Below are positions 47,840 through 57,210 of a stretch of DNA of 64,000 bases, one piece after another. The stretch's first letter is position 1. Each line of letters starts with the position of its first letter. Source of the stretch: Ruegeria halocynthiae (GTDB lineage Bacteria > Pseudomonadota > Alphaproteobacteria > Rhodobacterales > Rhodobacteraceae); NCBI RefSeq assembly GCF_000743705.1, contig NZ_JQEZ01000006.1:66547-130546 (forward strand), given 5' to 3'. The notes under the pieces were generated by a model, which was given only the letters and a program-made list of their open reading frames with translations, was not told the origin of the DNA and did no database searches. The position numbers were made by a program, and so were the translations under genes.

Positions 47840-49357
47840 TCAAAGATCCATCAACAGGCGGCGCGGGTCTTCCAGCGCCTCTTTCACACGCACAAGGAAC
47901 GTTACCGCGCCTTTGCCGTCAACGATCCGGTGGTCATAGGACAGCGCCAGATACATCATCGGGCGAATCTTGACCTCACCCTTGATGGCCATCGGACGGT
48001 CCTGAATCTTGTGCATCCCCAGAATACCCGATTGCGGCGGGTTCAGAATAGGCGAGGACATCAGCGAGCCATAGACACCACCGTTCGAGATGGTGAAAGT
48101 GCCGCCCTGCATTTCGGCCATGGACAGCTTGCCGTCACGGGCGCGCTGACCCTTTTCGGCGATGGCTTTTTCAATTTCGGCAAAAGACATGCTGTCGGCG
48201 TCGCGGATTACCGGAACCACCAGACCCTGCGGCGTACCGGCGGCAACGCCCATATGCACGAAGTTCTTATAGACGATGTCGGTGCCATCAATCTCGGCAT
48301 TGACCTCGGGCACTTCCTTCAGCGCATGACAGCAGGCCTTGGTGAAGAAGGACATGAAGCCCAGTTTGACGCCGTGCTTCTTCAGGAACAAGTCCTTGTA
48401 CTCGTTGCGCAGGGCCATCACCTCGGTCATGTCCACCTCGTTAAAGGTGGTCAGGATTGCGGCGGTGTCCTGGGCATCCTTCAGGCGTCTGGCGATGGTC
48501 TGGCGCAGACGGGTCATGCGCACGCGTTCCTCGCGCCCGGCATCTGCGGCGGCAACTGGTGCGCGCGGGGCCTGGGCAGCGGGGGCGGGCACAGCCGCCG
48601 CAGGCGCTGGGGCCGAAGCCGTTGCAACAGCACGGGCCACGTCTTCTTTCATGATCCGACCATCGCGACCTGTGCCGCTGACCTGATCGGCGGACAAGCC
48701 CGCCTCGGCCATCGCTTTTTCGGCCGACGGTGCGTTTGCAACATCCTTGCCAGCACTTGCCGCCGCAGTGGCAGCTGCCGGTGCCGCCGGTGCTGCCGCA
48801 GCACCTGCTGCCGCGCCCGAGATCACCGCCAGTTTGGCCGTTGCATCCACGGTCGCGCCCTCAGGGGCCACGATTTCCGCCAGAACGCCCGCCGACGGGG
48901 CCGGAACCTCGACCGAGACCTTGTCGGTCTCCAACTCGCACAGCATCTCATCCTGTGCGACGGCGTCACCTACCTGTTTGAACCAGGTGGAAACGGTGGC
49001 CTCGGTCACCGACTCGCCCAACGTAGGCACCATCACATCGACGCTGCCGCCGGCCGCCGCCGGGGCAGCAGCAACAGGGGCCGGAGCCGCCGCCGCTGCC
49101 GGAGCAGAGGCCGCACCTTCGCCCGCTGCGATGGTGGCCAGCAGGGCGTCAACACCAACGGTTTCGCCTTCGGCGGTGACGATCTCGCCCATCACACCCG
49201 CTGCGGGTGAGGGGACTTCGACCGTGACTTTGTCGGTTTCAAGTTCACACAGCATCTCATCCACGGCGACGGCGTCACCGGGTTTTTTGAACCACGTCGC
49301 AACCGTGGCTTCGGTTACCGATTCGCCAAGCGTGGGAACACGAACTTCAATGGACAT
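47840..49357 (-). CDS. sucB: 2-oxoglutarate dehydrogenase E2 (dihydrolipoyl succinyltransferase)
   Basis: Transfers the succinyl group from E1 to CoA. The 505-residue protein has two lipoyl domains (about 1-77 and 108-183), each with a modified Lys in ETDKV, Ala/Pro-rich linkers, a peripheral subunit-binding domain (about 205-245, [12 protein letters not shown]...DGRIMKEDV), and the catalytic core (about 275-505) ending with [13 protein letters not shown]. coli E2o has only one lipoyl domain, so this is the two-lipoyl form. It follows sucA by 3 bases. Confidence 0.97.
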
Positions 49358-49360
49358 CGC

Positions 49361-52318
49361 TTACTTTCCTTCAATGCTCAGCGCTTCGTTCACCAGCGCT
49401 TCTTGTTGGGCTTTGTGTTGGCTGGCCAGACCCGTCGCGGGCGAGGCCGAAGTGGCGCGACCGACATAGCGTGGCCGTTTGTTGTCGGCCCCGATGCGGG
49501 TCAGCACCCATTCGATATTGGGTTCGATGAAGGACCAGGCGCCCTGGTTCTTGGGTTCTTCCTGACACCAGACCATCTCGGCGCCTTTGAACCTTTCAAG
49601 CTCATTGATCAGCGAATGGGCCGGGAACGGATAAAACTGTTCGATCCGCAGCAGGTAGACGTCGTCGATCCCGCGCGCATCGCGCTCTTCCAACAGATCG
49701 AAATAGACCTTGCCCGAACACATCACCACGCGCTTGATCTTGTCGTCACCCACCAGTTTAGTATCCGAGTTACCCTTTTGCGCGTCATCCCACAGCACCC
49801 GGTGAAAGCTGGAGCCGGTGGTGAAATCTTCGGCCTCACTGACCGCCAGCTTGTGCCGCAGCAGCGATTTGGGCGTCACCAGAATCAGTGGTTTGCGGAA
49901 GGTCCGGTGCAGCTGACGGCGCAGGATGTGGAAATAGTTCGCAGGCGTCGTGCAATTGGCCACGATCCAGTTGTCCTGACCACACATCTGCAAGAACCGT
50001 TCAAGTCGCGCGGATGAATGTTCGGGGCCTTGCCCTTCGAACCCATGTGGCAACAGGCAGACCAGACCGGACATGCGCAGCCATTTGCTTTCGCCCGAAC
50101 TGATGAACTGATCGAACATGATCTGTGCCCCGTTGGCAAAGTCGCCAAACTGCGCCTCCCACAGGGTCAGGGCGTTGGGTTCGGCCAGTGAAAACCCGTA
50201 TTCAAAGCCCAGAACCGCATATTCGGAAAGCATCGAGTCGATTACTTCGTACTTCGACTGCCCTTCACGGATGTTGTTCAGCGGATAGTACCGTTCTTCG
50301 GTTTCCTGATGAATGAACCCGGAATGGCGTTGGCTGAACGTTCCGCGTGTTGCGTCCTGCCCGGACAGGCGCACTGGATACCCTTCGGTCAGCAATGAGC
50401 CAAAGGCCAGCGCCTCGCCGGTGGCCCAGTCAAAGCCCTGGCCGCTGTCGAACATCTTTTTCTTGTGGTCCAGCAGACGGGTCACGGTCTTGTGCACCGC
50501 GATATCCGTAGGCGCGTGGGTCAGCGCGTTGCCGATTGCGGTCAGCGTTGCAGGCGCGATCGCAGTGTCGCCGCGCACGTATTCTTCTTTGTTCTTGTCG
50601 AGATGCGACCAACGCCCATCCAGCCAGTCGGCCTTGTTGGGCTTATAGTCCTTACCGGCCTCGAACTCATCGTTCAGATGGGCCTGGAAGGCGGCTTTCA
50701 TATCCTCAATCTCACCCTCGGGGATCAGCCCGTCCTTGACCAGCCGTTCGGTGTAAAGGCTTAGCGTGGTTTTATGGGTTTTGATCTTCTTGTACATGAT
50801 CGGGTTGGTGAACATGGGCTCATCACCCTCGTTATGCCCGAACCGGCGATAGCAGAAGATGTCGATGACCACGTCCTTGTGGAACTTCTGCCGGAACTCT
50901 GTCGCGACCTTGGCGGCATGAACAACCGCTTCGGGGTCGTCGCCGTTGACGTGAAAGATCGGGGCTTCGACCATCAGCGCGATATCGGTGGGATACGGGC
51001 TGGAGCGCGAGAAGTGCGGCGCTGTGGTGAACCCGATCTGGTTGTTCACAACGATATGCATCGTGCCGCCGGTCTTGTGCCCACGCAGACCCGACAGACC
51101 GAACCCTTCGGCCACGACACCCTGACCGGCAAAGGCTGCATCGCCGTGCAGCAGGATGCCCATCACGGTCGTGCGGTCACTGTCGTTCATCTGATCCTGC
51201 TTGGCGCGGACCTTGCCCAGAACCACCGGATTCACCGCCTCAAGGTGGCTGGGGTTCGCAGTCAGCGACAGGTGAACGCTGTTGTCATCAAAGACGCGAT
51301 CAGATGACGCGCCAAGGTGGTATTTCACATCGCCCGAACCATCCACATCCTCGGGCTTGTAGCTGCCGCCCTGAAATTCGTTGAAAATGGCGCGATAAGG
51401 TTTGCCCATCACATTGGCCAGAATGTTCAGACGACCCCGGTGCGGCATCCCGATCACGATGTCACGCAGCCCCAGCGCACCGCCACGCTTGATGATCTGT
51501 TCCATCGCCGGGATCAGCGCCTCGCCACCGTCCAGACCGAACCGCTTGGTGCCCATGTATTTTACGTGCAGGAATTTCTCAAAGCCTTCGGCCTCGACCA
51601 TCTTGTTCAGGATCGCCTTGCGGCCTTCCTTGGTGAATGCGATTTCCTTACCATATCCCTCGATCCGTTCCTTCAGCCACGCGGCCTGTTCAGGATCGGA
51701 AATATGCATGTATTGCAGCGCAAAGGTGCCGCAATACGTCCGGCGCACAATCTCGACGATCTGGCGCATGCTGGCCATCTGCAGCCCCAGAACGTTGTCG
51801 ATGAAAATCGGCCGGTCCATGTCGGCATCGGTAAAGCCATAGGTCTTTGGGTCCAACTCAGGGTGGGTGCTGGCGGCGCGCATACCCAGCGGGTCGAGAT
51901 TGGCCGCCAGATGACCCCGGATACGATAGGCCCGGATCAGCATCAGCGCCCGCAGGCTGTCCAGCACGGCGCGCTTGATCTGATCTTCGCTGACCGCGAC
52001 ACCTTTGTCCGCCGCCTTGTCCTTGATCTTTTTGCCCGCAGCCTTGGCGTCGATCTCGGCCCATTCACCGGTCAGCGCGCCGGTCAGGTCATCGGACGGC
52101 ATCGGAGGCCAGTCGGACCGCGCCCAGGATGGCCCCTCGGCCTCGCGCTGGACGTCCGGCGTGGCATCCCCCATTGCCTTGAAGAACTCGGCCCATGCGG
52201 CATCCACCGCCCCGGGGTTCTTGGTGTACTGGGCATAAAGCTGCTCCAGATATTCAGCATTGTGCCCCTGCATAAAGCTTGAGGCATGAAAGGCAGAGTT
52301 GGGCGTATGTTCGGTCAT
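49361..52318 (-). CDS. sucA: 2-oxoglutarate dehydrogenase E1
   Basis: The thiamine-diphosphate decarboxylase of the complex, producing the succinyl group for SucB. The 985-residue protein starts MTEHTPNSAFHASSFMQG. Visible are the E1o N-terminal peptide, GMPHRGRLNILANVMGKP, the cofactor motif GDDPEAVVHAAKVATEFR with DIFCYRRFGHNEGDEP, and HGFEGQGPEHSSARLERFLQ. Its start overlaps the DUF805 gene by ATGA. Confidence 0.97.
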   Translation of the reverse strand: MTEHTPNSAFHASSFMQGHNAEYLEQLYAQYTKNPGAVDAAWAEFFKAMGDATPDVQREAEGPSWARSDWPPMPSDDLTGALTGEWAEIDAKAAGKKIKDKAADKGVAVSEDQIKRAVLDSLRALMLIRAYRIRGHLAANLDPLGMRAASTHPELDPKTYGFTDADMDRPIFIDNVLGLQMASMRQIVEIVRRTYCGTFALQYMHISDPEQAAWLKERIEGYGKEIAFTKEGRKAILNKMVEAEGFEKFLHVKYMGTKRFGLDGGEALIPAMEQIIKRGGALGLRDIVIGMPHRGRLNILANVMGKPYRAIFNEFQGGSYKPEDVDGSGDVKYHLGASSDRVFDDNSVHLSLTANPSHLEAVNPVVLGKVRAKQDQMNDSDRTTVMGILLHGDAAFAGQGVVAEGFGLSGLRGHKTGGTMHIVVNNQIGFTTAPHFSRSSPYPTDIALMVEAPIFHVNGDDPEAVVHAAKVATEFRQKFHKDVVIDIFCYRRFGHNEGDEPMFTNPIMYKKIKTHKTTLSLYTERLVKDGLIPEGEIEDMKAAFQAHLNDEFEAGKDYKPNKADWLDGRWSHLDKNKEEYVRGDTAIAPATLTAIGNALTHAPTDIAVHKTVTRLLDHKKKMFDSGQGFDWATGEALAFGSLLTEGYPVRLSGQDATRGTFSQRHSGFIHQETEERYYPLNNIREGQSKYEVIDSMLSEYAVLGFEYGFSLAEPNALTLWEAQFGDFANGAQIMFDQFISSGESKWLRMSGLVCLLPHGFEGQGPEHSSARLERFLQMCGQDNWIVANCTTPANYFHILRRQLHRTFRKPLILVTPKSLLRHKLAVSEAEDFTTGSSFHRVLWDDAQKGNSDTKLVGDDKIKRVVMCSGKVYFDLLEERDARGIDDVYLLRIEQFYPFPAHSLINELERFKGAEMVWCQEEPKNQGAWSFIEPNIEWVLTRIGADNKRPRYVGRATSASPATGLASQHKAQQEALVNEALSIEGK

Positions 52319-52857
52319 TGGGCTACCTCATATGGGTTGGGACCGTATTGATTGGTGCCTGGCTGGCTGGGGCGGGTTAGCCACCACAGCACCAGAAGGG
52401 GTGACACAAACAAAACAAGCAGTGTCGGAAGAACAATCAGCAACGTGGCGCGGGTGAACAGAATGTCCATGCTACCACCATGCTGGAAATGAGAGGCAAG
52501 GCCGATACCAAAGATCAGCACTGCGAATGCACCGAGGATCAACAGGATCGGCAACAAAGCATAAAGTCCGCTGCGCCCGGTATCATGCATCCGCCGCCAA
52601 GCAACAGCCAGATGCGGGAGGAATACGATCAGGCCAACGATGGACTGGACCGGTTGCCGGGATGTAGCGGTGATGGCTTTGACCTCATCACTTTCGCTGA
52701 CCGCGACCTGAGTGAAGAACTGCCAGTCGATGATCCCGGCGATAAAGCTCCAGATCACGATGAACAGGAAAAAGAACCAGTATTCGGGCCGCGAGGCACG
52801 GCCCGAGAAGGTGAAGAACTTGGAGAAACAGGTGCGGATGGCGTCAGTGAAGGTCAT
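52315..52857 (-). CDS. DUF805 membrane protein
   Basis: A 180-residue membrane protein of the DUF805 family: FFTFSGRASRPEYWFFFLF at the start, then LAVAWRRMHDTGRSGLYALL, and about four helices. Function unknown. It is locked into the TCA operon by ATGA overlaps at both ends, with the exported-protein gene upstream and sucA downstream. Confidence 0.9.
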   Translation of the reverse strand: MTFTDAIRTCFSKFFTFSGRASRPEYWFFFLFIVIWSFIAGIIDWQFFTQVAVSESDEVKAITATSRQPVQSIVGLIVFLPHLAVAWRRMHDTGRSGLYALLPILLILGAFAVLIFGIGLASHFQHGGSMDILFTRATLLIVLPTLLVLFVSPLLVLWWLTRPSQPGTNQYGPNPYEVAQ

Positions 52858-53465
52858 CGCTGCGCGTTTCCAGAATTGGACACAGAAGCCACAAACACGT
52901 ACCGGAGATCGACATTTTCATTTTCAAACCGTTCGTACGCCATTCTCGCTATTGCTCGGGCATTATATAGAGTTATCTGCGTGTTATCTTTTTCAAATTT
53001 GCCGAACTGGAAATCCCGTACCTTTTCAGCTTGAGGTACTTCTACGACTTTGAAGGGAGGTCGGCTTGACGTCAAAAAGCACGACTGCTCCGCACCGAGT
53101 AGCCGGATAGTCAGTAGCGCATCGCTTTTTGGATCACTAAAGTAAAAGTCCCAATCATAGGGGTTGGCTGGCTTGTCAAGAAATCTACGGGAGGATAAAT
53201 CTCGGACAATATCATAGTCACCATTTTTCCCCCAAGCCAAACCATAGTGCAGATTGAACATTGCGGAGTGGTCGAGCGCGCGCTGCTCTTCTGGTTTTTG
53301 TGCCTGCCAGCCAAACTCTCGAAAGTTAGCCTCTAAGGACTCCGCTTGAAGCCCATTGGAACACAAGCCGATTGTCTTCCAAAATTCGATTGCAATCGCG
53401 GTGGACGGCGCAACGAGCGCCATCGGCATTGCAAACAGAATAGCTGACAACCGTTTCAAGTTCAT
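52854..53465 (-). CDS. Exported protein of unknown function
   Basis: 203 residues from the ATG at 53465 with a signal peptide (about 1-26). The mature protein has few recognisable features; Cys residues at the start and middle might form a disulfide. Its DNA is more AT-rich than sucD and sucA. It ends with an ATGA overlap into the DUF805 gene. Family not recognised. Confidence 0.72.
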   Translation of the reverse strand: MNLKRLSAILFAMPMALVAPSTAIAIEFWKTIGLCSNGLQAESLEANFREFGWQAQKPEEQRALDHSAMFNLHYGLAWGKNGDYDIVRDLSSRRFLDKPANPYDWDFYFSDPKSDALLTIRLLGAEQSCFLTSSRPPFKVVEVPQAEKVRDFQFGKFEKDNTQITLYNARAIARMAYERFENENVDLRYVFVASVSNSGNAQR

Positions 53466-53510
53466 GCCGATGCAAAGTCCTCTGACTGTCTTAACTGCCG
53501 GTACATGCAA

Positions 53511-53549: not shown

Positions 53550-54431
53550 TTACCCAATCGCTTCCAGCACCGCCTCACCCAGCTGCGCCGGGCTTTCGGC
53601 CACGACGATACCGGCCGAGCGCATGGCTTCGATCTTGTCTTCGGCACCACCTTTGCCGCCGGCAACAATCGCGCCCGCGTGGCCCATGCGGCGGCCCGGA
53701 GGGGCCGTGCGGCCTGCGATGAAACCGGCGGTTGGCTTCTTGCGGCCTTTCTTGGCCTCATCCGCCAGAAACTGCGCGGCTTCTTCCTCGGCCGAGCCGC
53801 CGATCTCACCGATCATGATGATCGAGTGGGTCTCGTCATCGGCCAGGAACCACTCCAGCACGTCGATATGCTCGGTGCCCTTGATCGGGTCGCCGCCGAT
53901 GCCGACGCAGGTGGACTGGCCCAGACCCACATCGGTGGTCTGCTTGACGGCCTCATAGGTCAGCGTACCCGAGCGCGACACAACGCCGACCGAGCCGCGC
54001 TTGTGGATGTGGCCGGGCATGATGCCGATCTTGCAGGCGTCCGGCGTGATGACACCGGGGCAGTTCGGGCCGATCAGGCGCGAGCTTGAGCCTTCCAGCG
54101 CGCGTTTCACCTTCATCATGTCCAGAACCGGGATGCCTTCGGTGATGCAGACGATCACCTCCATCTCGGCATCAATCGCTTCGAGGATCGAGTCAGCTGC
54201 AAACGGCGGCGGCACATAGATCACGGACGCATTGGCTTCGGTCACGGCCTTGGCCTCATGGACCGAGTTGAACACCGGCAGGTCAAGATGGGTCATCCCG
54301 CCTTTGCCGGGTGTCACGCCGCCGACCATCTTGGTGCCATAGGCGATGGCCTGTTCGCTGTGGAATGTACCCTGCGAGCCGGTAAAGCCCTGACAGATCA
54401 CTTTGGTATTTTCGTCGATGAGGACTGCCAT
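53550..54431 (-). CDS. sucD: Succinyl-CoA synthetase alpha subunit
   Basis: Makes succinate and ATP/GTP from succinyl-CoA with SucC. The 293-residue protein has the CoA-binding start [29 protein letters not shown], and the active-site His region [15 protein letters not shown]. Length is typical. The first 133 bases (54299-54431) recur at 55250-55382 as part of a gene relic. The ribosome site GGAGG before this ATG differs from the one before the relic, so this copy has a new leader. Confidence 0.97.
54299..54431 (-). repeat. 133-bp direct repeat, copy inside intact sucD
   Basis: This copy matches 55250-55382 at 126 of 133 positions, with no gaps. All 7 differences are silent, including a Ser codon changed at all three positions (AGC versus TCT). 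Homology stops at the ATG on one side and after codon 45 on the other. Confidence 0.95.
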
Positions 54432-54496
54432 TTTAGGCCTCCATTTTGATTTGTGTAAGCGCGCTGGCTGTTATCTCTGTCAGCGCCGCGAGTTTC

Positions 54497-55171
54497 TTAG
54501 TTTTCTGAACCTTCTTTGCGCTGTTTCAGCACGTCAATGATCTGACCTTTGGACCAAATCCCCAATGAACGCTGGCTTCGCCCGACGGATGTCTCAAGAA
54601 ACTCAGGGTCCTGATTGATCTCACCTGTCTCACTTATTGTCTCCAACGGGTCAGGGAAGTTGAACGGCGCAGCGCAAGGGTTGAACCGTTTGAAATTCGC
54701 GTTGTTCTGAAGGCGGGGATTACGGAGAATGTAATGCCGCGTCATAAGCAAATAAGGTATGTCGCTTGCAACGAAGTTCTCAAAGAAAGCCCACCGTAGC
54801 CACCATTTTAAGTGGAACAGACAATCCCGGCACATCATGAGGTCAGCCTTGGGCAATGGATCAGAAGTTATGTCCAAATGAACAAACTCCCGACCTGGGA
54901 CGCCATGTTGTGCCTTCACCTCTTCCAATACCTGAAGCGAGATGTCCCCGCCAATATAGCGAATGCCGTTCAGGTCCACTTCTCGCATCCACGTCCAATC
55001 GCCACAGGGCGCGTCCAGGAATGTCTCGACTTTGAATTGGTTGAAGATGCGAGGTAATGCCTCACGCAATGGCTCGGTCGCCGCAAGCGTAGAGCCAGGT
55101 CCGGAGCGCGGGCCATTTGCCCGTCCAGACCAGCTTTTACTTTCAAATGCGACTCTTAAACTATCACGCAT
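54497..55171 (-). CDS. Class I SAM-dependent methyltransferase, inserted between sucC and sucD
   Basis: A 224-residue protein with the SAM-binding motif FLDAPCGDWTWM (about residues 51-62), IGGDIS as motif II, and an acidic-hydrophobic segment PLPKADLMMCRDCLFHL. Target unknown. AGGGG lies 6 bases before the ATG. The DNA is AT-richer than sucC and sucD. It is flanked by a sucC 3'-end copy upstream and by intact sucD downstream, which suggests that it arrived together with these flanks. Confidence 0.82.
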   Translation of the reverse strand: MRDSLRVAFESKSWSGRANGPRSGPGSTLAATEPLREALPRIFNQFKVETFLDAPCGDWTWMREVDLNGIRYIGGDISLQVLEEVKAQHGVPGREFVHLDITSDPLPKADLMMCRDCLFHLKWWLRWAFFENFVASDIPYLLMTRHYILRNPRLQNNANFKRFNPCAAPFNFPDPLETISETGEINQDPEFLETSVGRSQRSLGIWSKGQIIDVLKQRKEGSEN

Positions 55172-55214
55172 TGCAAGCCCCTGTTCAGAGTTGAGAATGA
55201 AAAGATCCGGGTAA

Positions 55215-55382
55215 TCAGCCCTTAACCGCCTTCACGATTTCCTAGGCGCCGCCTTTGCCGGGGGTTACGCCGCCGACCATCTTGGTGCCATAGGCGATGG
55301 CCTGTTCAGAGTGGAATGTGCCCTGTGAGCCGGTAAAGCCCTGACAGATCACTTTGGTATTTTCGTCGATGAGGACTGCCAT
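55215..55382 (-). pseudogene. Relic: sucD 5' end fused in frame to sucC 3' end
   Basis: Reading from 55382 the frame gives the first 45 residues of SucD unchanged, then Ala, a TAG stop, then EIVKAVKG and TGA, which is the C-terminus of SucC (EKIVKAVKG in the intact gene). The phase is kept across the join at GGCGGCGCC. A strong ribosome site (AAAGGAGAACGCC) precedes the ATG, so a 46-residue peptide may still be translated. It is not a functional synthetase subunit. Confidence 0.92.
55219..55238 (-). repeat. 20-bp exact copy of the sucC 3' end
   Basis: Identical to 56021-56040 within intact sucC, covering codons IVKAVKG. Beyond it the relic differs in the stop codon (TGA versus TAA) and the last Gly codon, so this end also comes from a diverged allele. 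Confidence 0.9.
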
Positions 55383-55432
55383 CTGGCGTTCTCCTTTGAA
55401 TTGGCGGGTATTCCCCGCAGACATTCGTTCAT

Positions 55433-55456
55433 GAAGGCGAAAGGGCTTTCGCCTTC
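55433..55456. other. Hairpin before the sucD relic
   Basis: GAAGGCGAAA pairs perfectly with TTTCGCCTTC around GGGC. It stands between the lipoprotein gene and the relic's ribosome site and has no T-run. It may be the ancestral sucC-sucD intercistronic hairpin that sets the SucC:SucD ratio or mRNA stability. Confidence 0.5.
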
Positions 55457-55466
55457 CATTTGAGCG

Positions 55467-56012
55467 TCAATTGTAAATGTACTCAGCAACCTCTTCCCGC
55501 GTTGCTGGTTTTGAGATCAAAACGATGTGCCGAATTTGGCTGCCTTTTCGTTTGACTTCGTACGTCATGACGCTGCCGTTTCTGAGTTGATATGCATAGG
55601 CGAATCTGGAGCTCGGAAACTTTTCACGGGGTTTGCCACCCGTGCGTTTGGTAGCTTCCTGCAAGAACAGCGAGCCGATTTCTGCGCTATTCTCTGATCC
55701 GAGAAATCCAACGCCGCACGCTGATTTGTCGCCAATTTCTGCCGACGTGACGGTCAACAACTTTTCACCGGGTGCTTTGTAGGCTGTCAGGCCTCCTTTT
55801 CGTCCGGCGGGAGTCAAACCACGTCTTTCTACAACACTCGGGAAACCATCAAAGTTCGGCAGTGTTTTCAGACATGCATCTGAAAACATCTGAACAGGTT
55901 GATTGGTTTCAGAGAAAGAAAATGACGCGGCTGCGATCCTTTCTGGCGAGGGCGCGCAGCCAGCCAAGGCAATTGCACATGCCAGAATTGTAGTTTTGAT
56001 ACCAACTTTCAC
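55467..56012 (-). CDS. Lipoprotein of unknown function, inserted after sucC
   Basis: 181 residues with a lipobox ALAGC (Cys19). The GTG start is 4 bases after the sucC stop, and AAGGGGT overlapping that stop can serve as ribosome site, so translation is coupled to sucC. The mature part contains Cys residues (DACLKTL, SACGVGF) and ends AEYIYN. No family recognised. The DNA is AT-richer than sucC. It is one of two cargo genes between sucC and sucD. Confidence 0.78.
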
Positions 56013-56016
56013 AAAC

Positions 56017-57210
56017 TTACCCCTTAACCGCCTTCACGATCTTTTCGGCGCCGTCTTTCAAGTTGTCCGCCGCGATCACGTCCAGGCCAGAGGTGTTGAT
56101 GATCTCTTTGCCTTTCTCGACATTCGTGCCTTCCAGACGCACGACCAACGGCACTTTCAGACCAACCTCTTTCACCGCAGCGACAACGCCCTCGGCGATG
56201 ACGTCACAGCGCATGATGCCGCCGAAGATGTTGACCAGAATGCCTTTGACCTGCGGATCCGAGGTGATGATCTTGAACGCCTCGGTCACTTTCTCTTTGG
56301 TGGCACCGCCGCCCACGTCGAGGAAGTTGGCAGGCTCGGCCCCGTACAGCTTGATGATGTCCATCGTCGCCATCGCCAGACCAGCACCGTTGACCATGCA
56401 CCCGATCTCACCATCTAGCGCGATGTAGTTCAGGTCGTATTTGCTGGCTTCCAACTCCTTGGGGTCTTCCTCGGTCGTGTCGCGCAGTTCGGCGATGTCG
56501 GGGTGACGGTAGACCGCGTTGCCGTCAAAGCCGACCTTGGCGTCCAGCACCTTGAGGTCACCACTGTCGGAGACGATCAGCGGGTTGATCTCCAGCATCT
56601 CCATGTCCTTCTCGACGAAGGCGGCGTAAAGCTGGCTCATCAGTTTGACGCATTGTTTGACCTGCGCGCCCTGTAGGCCCAGCGAGAACGCGATGCGGCG
56701 GCCATGATAGGGCTGATAGCCGGTCGCGGGATCAACAGAAAAGGACAGGATTTTCTCGGGCGTGGCTGCGGCCACCTCTTCGATGTCCATGCCGCCTTCG
56801 GTCGAGCAGACAAATGAGATGCGGCTGGTCTGGCGATCCACCAGCAGGGCCAGGTACATCTCGGTCTCGATGCCGGACCCGGCTTCGATATAGATGCGGT
56901 TGACCTGTTTGCCCGCCGGGCCGGTCTGATGAGTGACCAGCGTGCGACCCAGCATCTTCTTGGCTTCCTCGGATGCTTCTTCCACCGATTTGGTCAGACG
57001 GACACCGCCTTTTTCACCGGCGTCGGCCTCTTTGAAAGACCCCTTGCCGCGACCGCCCGCGTGGATTTGTGCCTTGACGACCCAAAGCGGCCCATCCAGT
57101 TCTCCGGCTGCGGTTTTGGCTTCCTCGGCGCGCAGAACCGCGCGACCTTCGGAGACCGGAGCGCCATAGCTGCGCAAAAGAGCTTTGGCCTGATATTCGT
57201 GAATGTTCAT
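56017..57210 (-). CDS. sucC: Succinyl-CoA synthetase beta subunit
   Basis: The nucleotide-binding partner of SucD. The 397-residue protein starts [16 protein letters not shown] with an ATP-grasp domain ([28 protein letters not shown]), and the C-terminal domain carries [17 protein letters not shown] and [15 protein letters not shown]. It is the first gene of the operon that runs to lpd. Its leader carries a paired-palindrome operator. Confidence 0.97.

Follow-up and report, generated by a model that had tools for sequence, protein, structure and literature searches.

Gene stubs and varied cargo genes at the sucC-sucD junction of Ruegeria halocynthiae and its relatives

Layout of the junction

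The window analyzed here is a 64,000-nucleotide stretch of Ruegeria halocynthiae DNA (contig NZ_JQEZ01000006.1, positions 66,547 to 130,546). The subject of this text is the junction between its genes for the two subunits of succinyl-CoA synthetase, sucC and sucD, where genes of other kinds, termed cargo, are found together with fragments of both subunit genes. All features lie on the minus strand, in the order sucC, lipoprotein gene, sucD', sucC', methyltransferase gene, and sucD, which an earlier sequence-only reading had already given, and which can be read directly from the sequence. The putative exchange site is flanked on the left by sucC (beta subunit, 56017..57210), an open reading frame with Pfam ATP-grasp_2 and Ligase_CoA matches, and on the right by the open reading frame of the intact sucD (alpha subunit, 53550..54431; Pfam CoA_binding and Ligase_CoA). 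The open reading frame of cargo 1 (55467..56012) encodes a 181-aa lipoprotein-like protein, named after a lipobox spotted by eye and without a Pfam match, which belongs to a BLAST cluster of 11, with relatives at the same site in other Ruegeria. That of cargo 2 (54497..55171) encodes a 224-aa methyltransferase-like protein, whose Pfam methyltransferase matches (E about 0.002-0.003) do not reach the curated thresholds, and which also has same-site relatives. An AAGGGG in the last sucC codons (56017-56031) may double as the cargo's ribosome-binding site.

Between the two cargo genes, sequence comparison identifies a ribosome-binding region of the type preceding sucD in cargo-less loci (AAAGGAGAACGCCAG, 55383..55404). 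It is followed by the sucD' relic (55249..55382), a 134-base sucD start that, according to repeat, profile, and allele comparisons, stems from an allele of probably foreign origin, and then by the sucC' relic (about 55215..55256), comprising the final sucC codons with their own TGA, detected as a direct repeat and with a sucC 3' profile (E 6.7e-5). In the self-comparison of the window, the sucD' relic and the start of the window's own sucD form a 134-bp repeat with 95% identity and E = 1.2e-53, i.e., beyond chance. The 126 identical bases out of 133 counted earlier become 127 of 134 on recounting, and the claim that all seven differences are silent, including TCT (relic) versus AGC (own sucD) at Ser25, was confirmed. 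As a base rate, a further 381 kb of the 4.3-Mb genome were included in this self-comparison and yielded 20 rows, many within repeat clusters; no copied gene start was seen in the two of these 20 pairs that were read (a recombinase 3' end, and a repeat inside one long frame).

The sucC' piece ends in GGC TGA and the intact sucC in GGG TAA, differences that the sequence-only reading had called allele-like. The join itself, GGCGGCGCC, sits where sucD (AAAGGCGG) and sucC (AAAGACGG) share an imperfect microhomology, in agreement with the earlier remark that it shares a few bases with both genes. The fusion of sucD' and sucC' had been described as in frame: the two parts are indeed in register, yet a TAG at 55244-55242 ends the frame after 46 codons, and it is, thus, not open to its end. 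An assembly error is an unlikely source of the relic, since relics of the same kind occur in assemblies of many species.

Both forms of the Ser25 codon are standing alleles of the genus, TCT being found in 31/53 other Ruegeria and AGC in 19/53. The relic is two changes away from the sucD of four other species (L051, L026, L014, and L009; such L-numbers label the sucC-sucD loci compared) and seven away from the window's own, which, for its part, differs by two changes from L024 and L016. As the relic and the own sucD carry different standing alleles, they would derive from two lineages, as the sequence-only reading had proposed; this origin is supported by the population alleles, not by the tree. 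In a tree of the 134 bases, the own sucD start falls within a supported set of 21 rows, and the relic within none of the reported supported sets of up to half the rows. The ribosome-binding region of the intact sucD (54432..54451) is, by comparison of loci, of the methyltransferase-linked GGAGG type. GGAGG precedes sucD in all six methyltransferase loci, and GGAGA in 18/18 empty and 16/18 other-cargo loci. This region tracks the cargo, and the window's GGAGG is as expected if sucD arrived with the methyltransferase gene.

Recurrence of the scar and turnover of the cargo

The comparison took in 166 loci in total. All 54 available Ruegeria genomes, including the window's own, were used. The 107 loci of other genera are a non-random sample, being the best of a SucD-similarity list (291 of 296 genomes matched, a count that includes the own genome and a further one of its genus), with some short-contig ones omitted. 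Five further loci of other genera were picked via their methyltransferase; they inflate the share of relics and were counted separately. The sucC-sucD spacer measures less than 200 bp in 18/54 Ruegeria and at least 200 bp, i.e., cargo, in 36/54; at least 200 bp are also found in 64 of the 107 other-genus loci. The non-coding spacer sequence of the empty loci is a different one, so the cargo replaces the spacer instead of being inserted into it.

The Ruegeria cargo falls into 16 BLAST clusters (clustering covered the cargo frames of 81 loci, excluding two frames belonging to relics), some of which distant kinship among small lipoproteins might merge. Of the 22 cargo proteins scanned, six receive a name from Pfam: two methyltransferases (of which the window's falls below cut-off), two GT25 glycosyltransferases, an RDD protein, and a sulfotransferase. 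For two others, the match is weak or short (DUF4808, lipoprotein attachment site), and the remaining 14 match nothing. No integrase or transposase was found by Pfam among these 22 proteins, a genome-wide search for integron integrases and attC sites not being part of the scan. An anti-phage role of the cargo was considered and rejected, as PADLOC, run on 30 cargo proteins, returned mad2 alone, for 2/30 (best E 4e-6, the window's methyltransferase).

Each of the window's two cargo types also occurs alone. The methyltransferase is the sole cargo in four Ruegeria loci (L008, L017, L019, and L023), and the lipoprotein family in three (L009, L013, and L032) and in one locus of another genus (L062). 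Both single-cargo junctions predicted from the window alone were, thus, found in Ruegeria species. Two cargo genes are present in 9/54 Ruegeria (L010, L029, L034, L036, L039, L040, L045, L047, and the window), and in all nine a sucD' relic lies between them, recognized by profile in eight and by eye in L034, where it is strongly decayed. Recurrence of the scar, in other species and in other genera, goes beyond what had been claimed from the window. Among the 143 spacers of at least 40 bp, each from a locus defined as one sucC plus one sucD, a profile of the sucD 5' end gave 12 matches, each lying on the operon strand and beginning at base 1 or 2, and one of the sucC 3' end gave three, all at the stop end. 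Control profiles (sucD 3' end, sucC 5' end, and sucD middle) gave no match in these spacers, nor did the reversed spacers.

Outside Ruegeria, sucD' or sucC' scars were found in five loci. L084 is one of them; L099 is a mirror image, with a piece of only sucC', about 90 bases long and with its stop, between two cargo genes. In L131, a Roseovarius metagenome-assembled genome, about 99 bases of sucD' stand in register with the last sucC codons, the point reached in sucD differing from that of the window. L130 (Halocynthiibacter) and L134 (Roseobacter) have sucD' upstream of the same methyltransferase as the window. When the six GT25 loci (L010, L034, L036, L039, L045, and L047) are counted as one, the distinct joins number nine, the others being those of the window, L029, L040, L084, L099, L130, L131, and L134. 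The sucD' relics are about 47 to 211 bases long. Bases shared by both partners are seen at two of the nine joins, that of the window and that of L131 (around GGC), the other seven lacking partner sequence. At other junctions of the operon, no sucD-start piece was found in 114 sucD-sucA and 110 mdh-sucC spacers, including the window's own sucD-sucA spacer; these spacers gave ten weak single-query matches to other gene ends.

Two observations touch on single loci. In L040 (4410-5985), the window's lipoprotein family is followed by a sucD' stub of about 59 bases and by a GT25 gene as second cargo, which reads as another join on a related first cargo. The sucC-sucD spacer of L079, a GC-rich genome, contains a 52-bp stretch similar to the sucA start, on the strand opposite to the operon (E 5e-9, 2 queries).

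The cargo turns over between genomes. Methyltransferase relatives of at least 70% identity occur in 6/54 Ruegeria, exclusively at sucC-sucD (6/6), with three more at about 52% elsewhere; over the GTDB species set, 18 methyltransferase loci were found, 10 between sucC and sucD and eight elsewhere. GT25 relatives of at least 44% occur in 12/54 Ruegeria, again exclusively at sucC-sucD (12/12). Mapped onto an mdh-sucA tree, the methyltransferase requires six label changes, GT25 six, empty versus cargo-bearing status 12, and the relic eight. L018 and L044 carry cargo of 96% identity, with mdh at 84%, and 95-98% identity extends about 100 bases into sucC and about 50 into sucD. L007 (empty) and L017 (methyltransferase) agree in mdh (90-98%), sucC (91-99%), and sucA (91-100%); their sucD is at 82-91% beyond its first 300 bases, and this divergence reads as import of sucD. 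At the end of sucC, the final codons occur as a silent GTT AAG haplotype in 31/36 cargo loci and 0/18 empty ones (Fisher 3.5e-10). Taken together, the L018/L044 tract, the sucD of L007/L017, and the sucC linkage are signs of recombination in the flanks.

Proposed one-sided recombination and its alternatives

The sucC-sucD junction of Ruegeria and relatives is probably a small gene-exchange site without a recognized recombinase, where one-sided events leave stubs behind. The usual event would be homologous recombination in sucC and sucD that swaps a whole allele, comprising the sucC end, one cargo gene with its own sucD ribosome-binding region, and the sucD start. Occasionally, the incoming DNA would be homologous at one side and be joined through microhomology at the other, in which case the old cargo would be retained, a second one gained, and a sucD stub (or, in the mirrored case, a sucC stub) left between them. 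In the window, donor DNA with the sucC end, the methyltransferase gene, and sucD would have joined a resident sucC-lipoprotein-sucD allele, the lipoprotein gene being the presumed resident cargo. Its right end would have recombined in sucD, and at its left end, at AAAGrCGG, the resident sucD would have been fused near codon 45 to the donor sucC, some 12 codons short of the end of that gene. The sequence-only reading had proposed this incoming sucC-methyltransferase-sucD fragment, and the single-cargo junctions, the genus alleles, and the GGAGG region support the model.

The structure would fit homology-facilitated illegitimate recombination, which the sequence-only reading had named, a process that combines one homologous anchor with one microhomology join. 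For the homologous side, both the GGAGG region and the Ser25 allele of the own sucD agree with methyltransferase loci. Such an anchor and join would yield what is seen in the window; unlike in laboratory crosses, the process would here be traced in natural genomes of several genera. Delivery could have been by a gene transfer agent or by transformation. The gene transfer agent marker PF13547 exceeds its cut-off in 48/54 Ruegeria, including the window's genome (some matches being partial), and the ComEC family, associated with transformation, is present, but likewise in 10/14 control genomes.

Several findings weigh against this account. An approximately unbiased (AU) test on the 134 bases does not reject the relic and the own sucD as sisters (p = 0.25), so the claim of two lineages stands on the alleles and not on the tree, and the compared loci include no exact match to the donor allele. 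A simple rule for two-gene loci listed 22 loci, 12 of them with a relic (it missed the relic loci L034 and L131); within Ruegeria, all eight loci listed have one, and outside the genus only two (L084 and L099) of the 12 not chosen via the methyltransferase do, some of these 12 possibly being spurious frames in GC-rich DNA. As most other-genus two-gene loci have no stub, scar formation is not the sole route. Five weak matches to other gene ends, that of L079 among them, were also seen in other-genus sucC-sucD spacers. The association between sucC alleles and cargo drops within some 60 bases, from 0.164 to 0.021, and is at most 0.02 in some windows further up, a sharper fall-off than long-tract exchange would give. 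Finally, several Ruegeria relics stop near base 60, which random joining would not predict.

This last point would be accommodated by a site-specific recombinase that moves cassettes with defined ends at the sucC end and the sucD start. The junction used is always the same, the last sucC codons are linked to the cargo, and the two sucD'-sucC' joins (window and L131) share one glycine codon of sucC. Ruegeria sucD also shows low silent diversity (0.06-0.07) over codons 1-20, followed by 0.13-0.42 per bin; the first bins of other genera (0.34-0.35) stay inside the range of the remainder (0.28-0.52). The low-diversity step after the first 20 codons (window 54298-54431 and its homologues in the 54 Ruegeria) lies close to several relic ends. 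The base-60 ends, the diversity step, and the shared glycine codon fit a defined-end system, or chance with shared microhomology. As the scanned cargo proteins include no integrase or transposase, the relic ends differ between loci (about 47 to 211 bases), and the cargo replaces a different non-coding spacer, such a recombinase appears improbable.

Equally improbable is that sucC-cargo-sucD was duplicated locally, in tandem, within one lineage and then altered by deletion and drift, even though duplication is a common process and the AU test does not reject the sisterhood that it predicts. The relic differs from the own sucD at silent sites only, with standing genus alleles on both sides at Ser25, and is closer to the sucD of four other species; moreover, the two cargo genes are unrelated, and each is found alone elsewhere. 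The population alleles, therefore, disfavor duplication as the sole cause, which the 134-base tree does not exclude. Somewhat less remote, although still unlikely, is the capture of a whole allele in tandem by a single crossover, with a later deletion, at a microhomology, reaching from the first sucD to the second sucC. Its end product would be identical, and the window and L131, where sucD' and sucC' are both kept and joined in register, suit it. Within the region searched, none of the 166 loci shows an intermediate with two full copies, a weak argument as second full copies were not specifically sought, and the stubs mostly lack a sucC' part (three sucC' versus 12 sucD' matches).

Possible uses of the stub and related systems

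Compatible with an origin by one-sided recombination is the tentative idea that the stub is kept since it is functional, its sucD ribosome-binding site and short leader frame bringing ribosomes to cargo 2. All 13 sucD' relics retain their start codon, and their frame reaches a stop no later than the start of cargo 2, as do 17/26 other frames (Fisher p 0.018; the relics are not independent, six of the 13 being related), and an AGGAG lies upstream of 12/13 (by eye). The relic stop overlaps the next start in L029 and L084 and precedes it by 1-4 nt in L034, L039, L130, and L134. Stops within 6 nt of cargo 2 are, however, in no excess (6/13 relic frames versus 8/26 other frames), which speaks against strong translational coupling by the relic and adds to the points against the account as a whole. 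In substitution-only simulations, the chance of staying open was 0.20-0.93 per relic (11 relics). The leader role is, thus, weakly supported.

It is also conceivable, if doubtful, that the junction works as an integrase-free cassette platform, in which the short conserved ends of sucC (last codons) and sucD (first ~20 codons) would serve as recombination handles, and the stubs would be reused in two ways, as handles when the first cargo is swapped and as translation starts from which the second is read. If so, accessory genes could stack without harm to the operon.

Integron gene cassettes are single genes of one orientation and varied content, collected at a fixed site. The sucC-sucD cargo likewise consists of varied single genes in one orientation at a fixed site; unlike in integrons, the flanks are housekeeping genes, and the 22 scanned cargo proteins include no integrase. 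For hotspots between core genes, exchange by flanking recombination was proposed in 2017 (PMC5635113). Such hotspots share with the present site a high turnover of accessory genes between conserved genes, the lack of a recognized mobile element, and signs of recombination in the flanks; they differ in that the present site lies between two subunit genes of one enzyme, receives one or two cargo genes in the direction of the operon, and leaves stubs of the flanking genes that record single events. Gene transfer agents of the RcGTA type are described as carrying fragments of about 4.5 kb and leading to allelic replacement (PMC9690577). This size would suit sucC-cargo-sucD, and the marker is widespread in Ruegeria; the sucC-sucD events are not tied to a gene transfer agent over transformation or conjugation.

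No prior description of a sucC-sucD cargo site was found in the literature titles and abstracts searched, subscription papers being largely outside this coverage. The process is of a known kind; the setting and the footprint are new. The entry of accessory genes into core operons is usually inferred from comparisons of before and after, and the scars described here preserve single events. In several genera, they retain foreign alleles as well as the points of joining, which makes one-sided homologous gene gain measurable in nature. The exchange site is very small and sits between the genes for the two subunits of a single enzyme of the tricarboxylic acid (TCA) cycle, i.e., of central metabolism.

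Other features of the window and its genome were noted in passing. The sucD-sucA junction (window 52315-53471) holds two accessory genes, one a DUF805 gene and the other of 205 aa with no match in Pfam, and is variable among Ruegeria. On contig C1 of the same genome, an 80-bp repeat of 90% identity (about 216241-216320 and 218325-218404, 2 kb apart), at the 3' end of a recombinase-like gene, looks like a mobile-element footprint. A 182-bp direct repeat of 74% identity in the window (48849-49030 and 49158-49339) presumably corresponds to two lipoyl domains of sucB.

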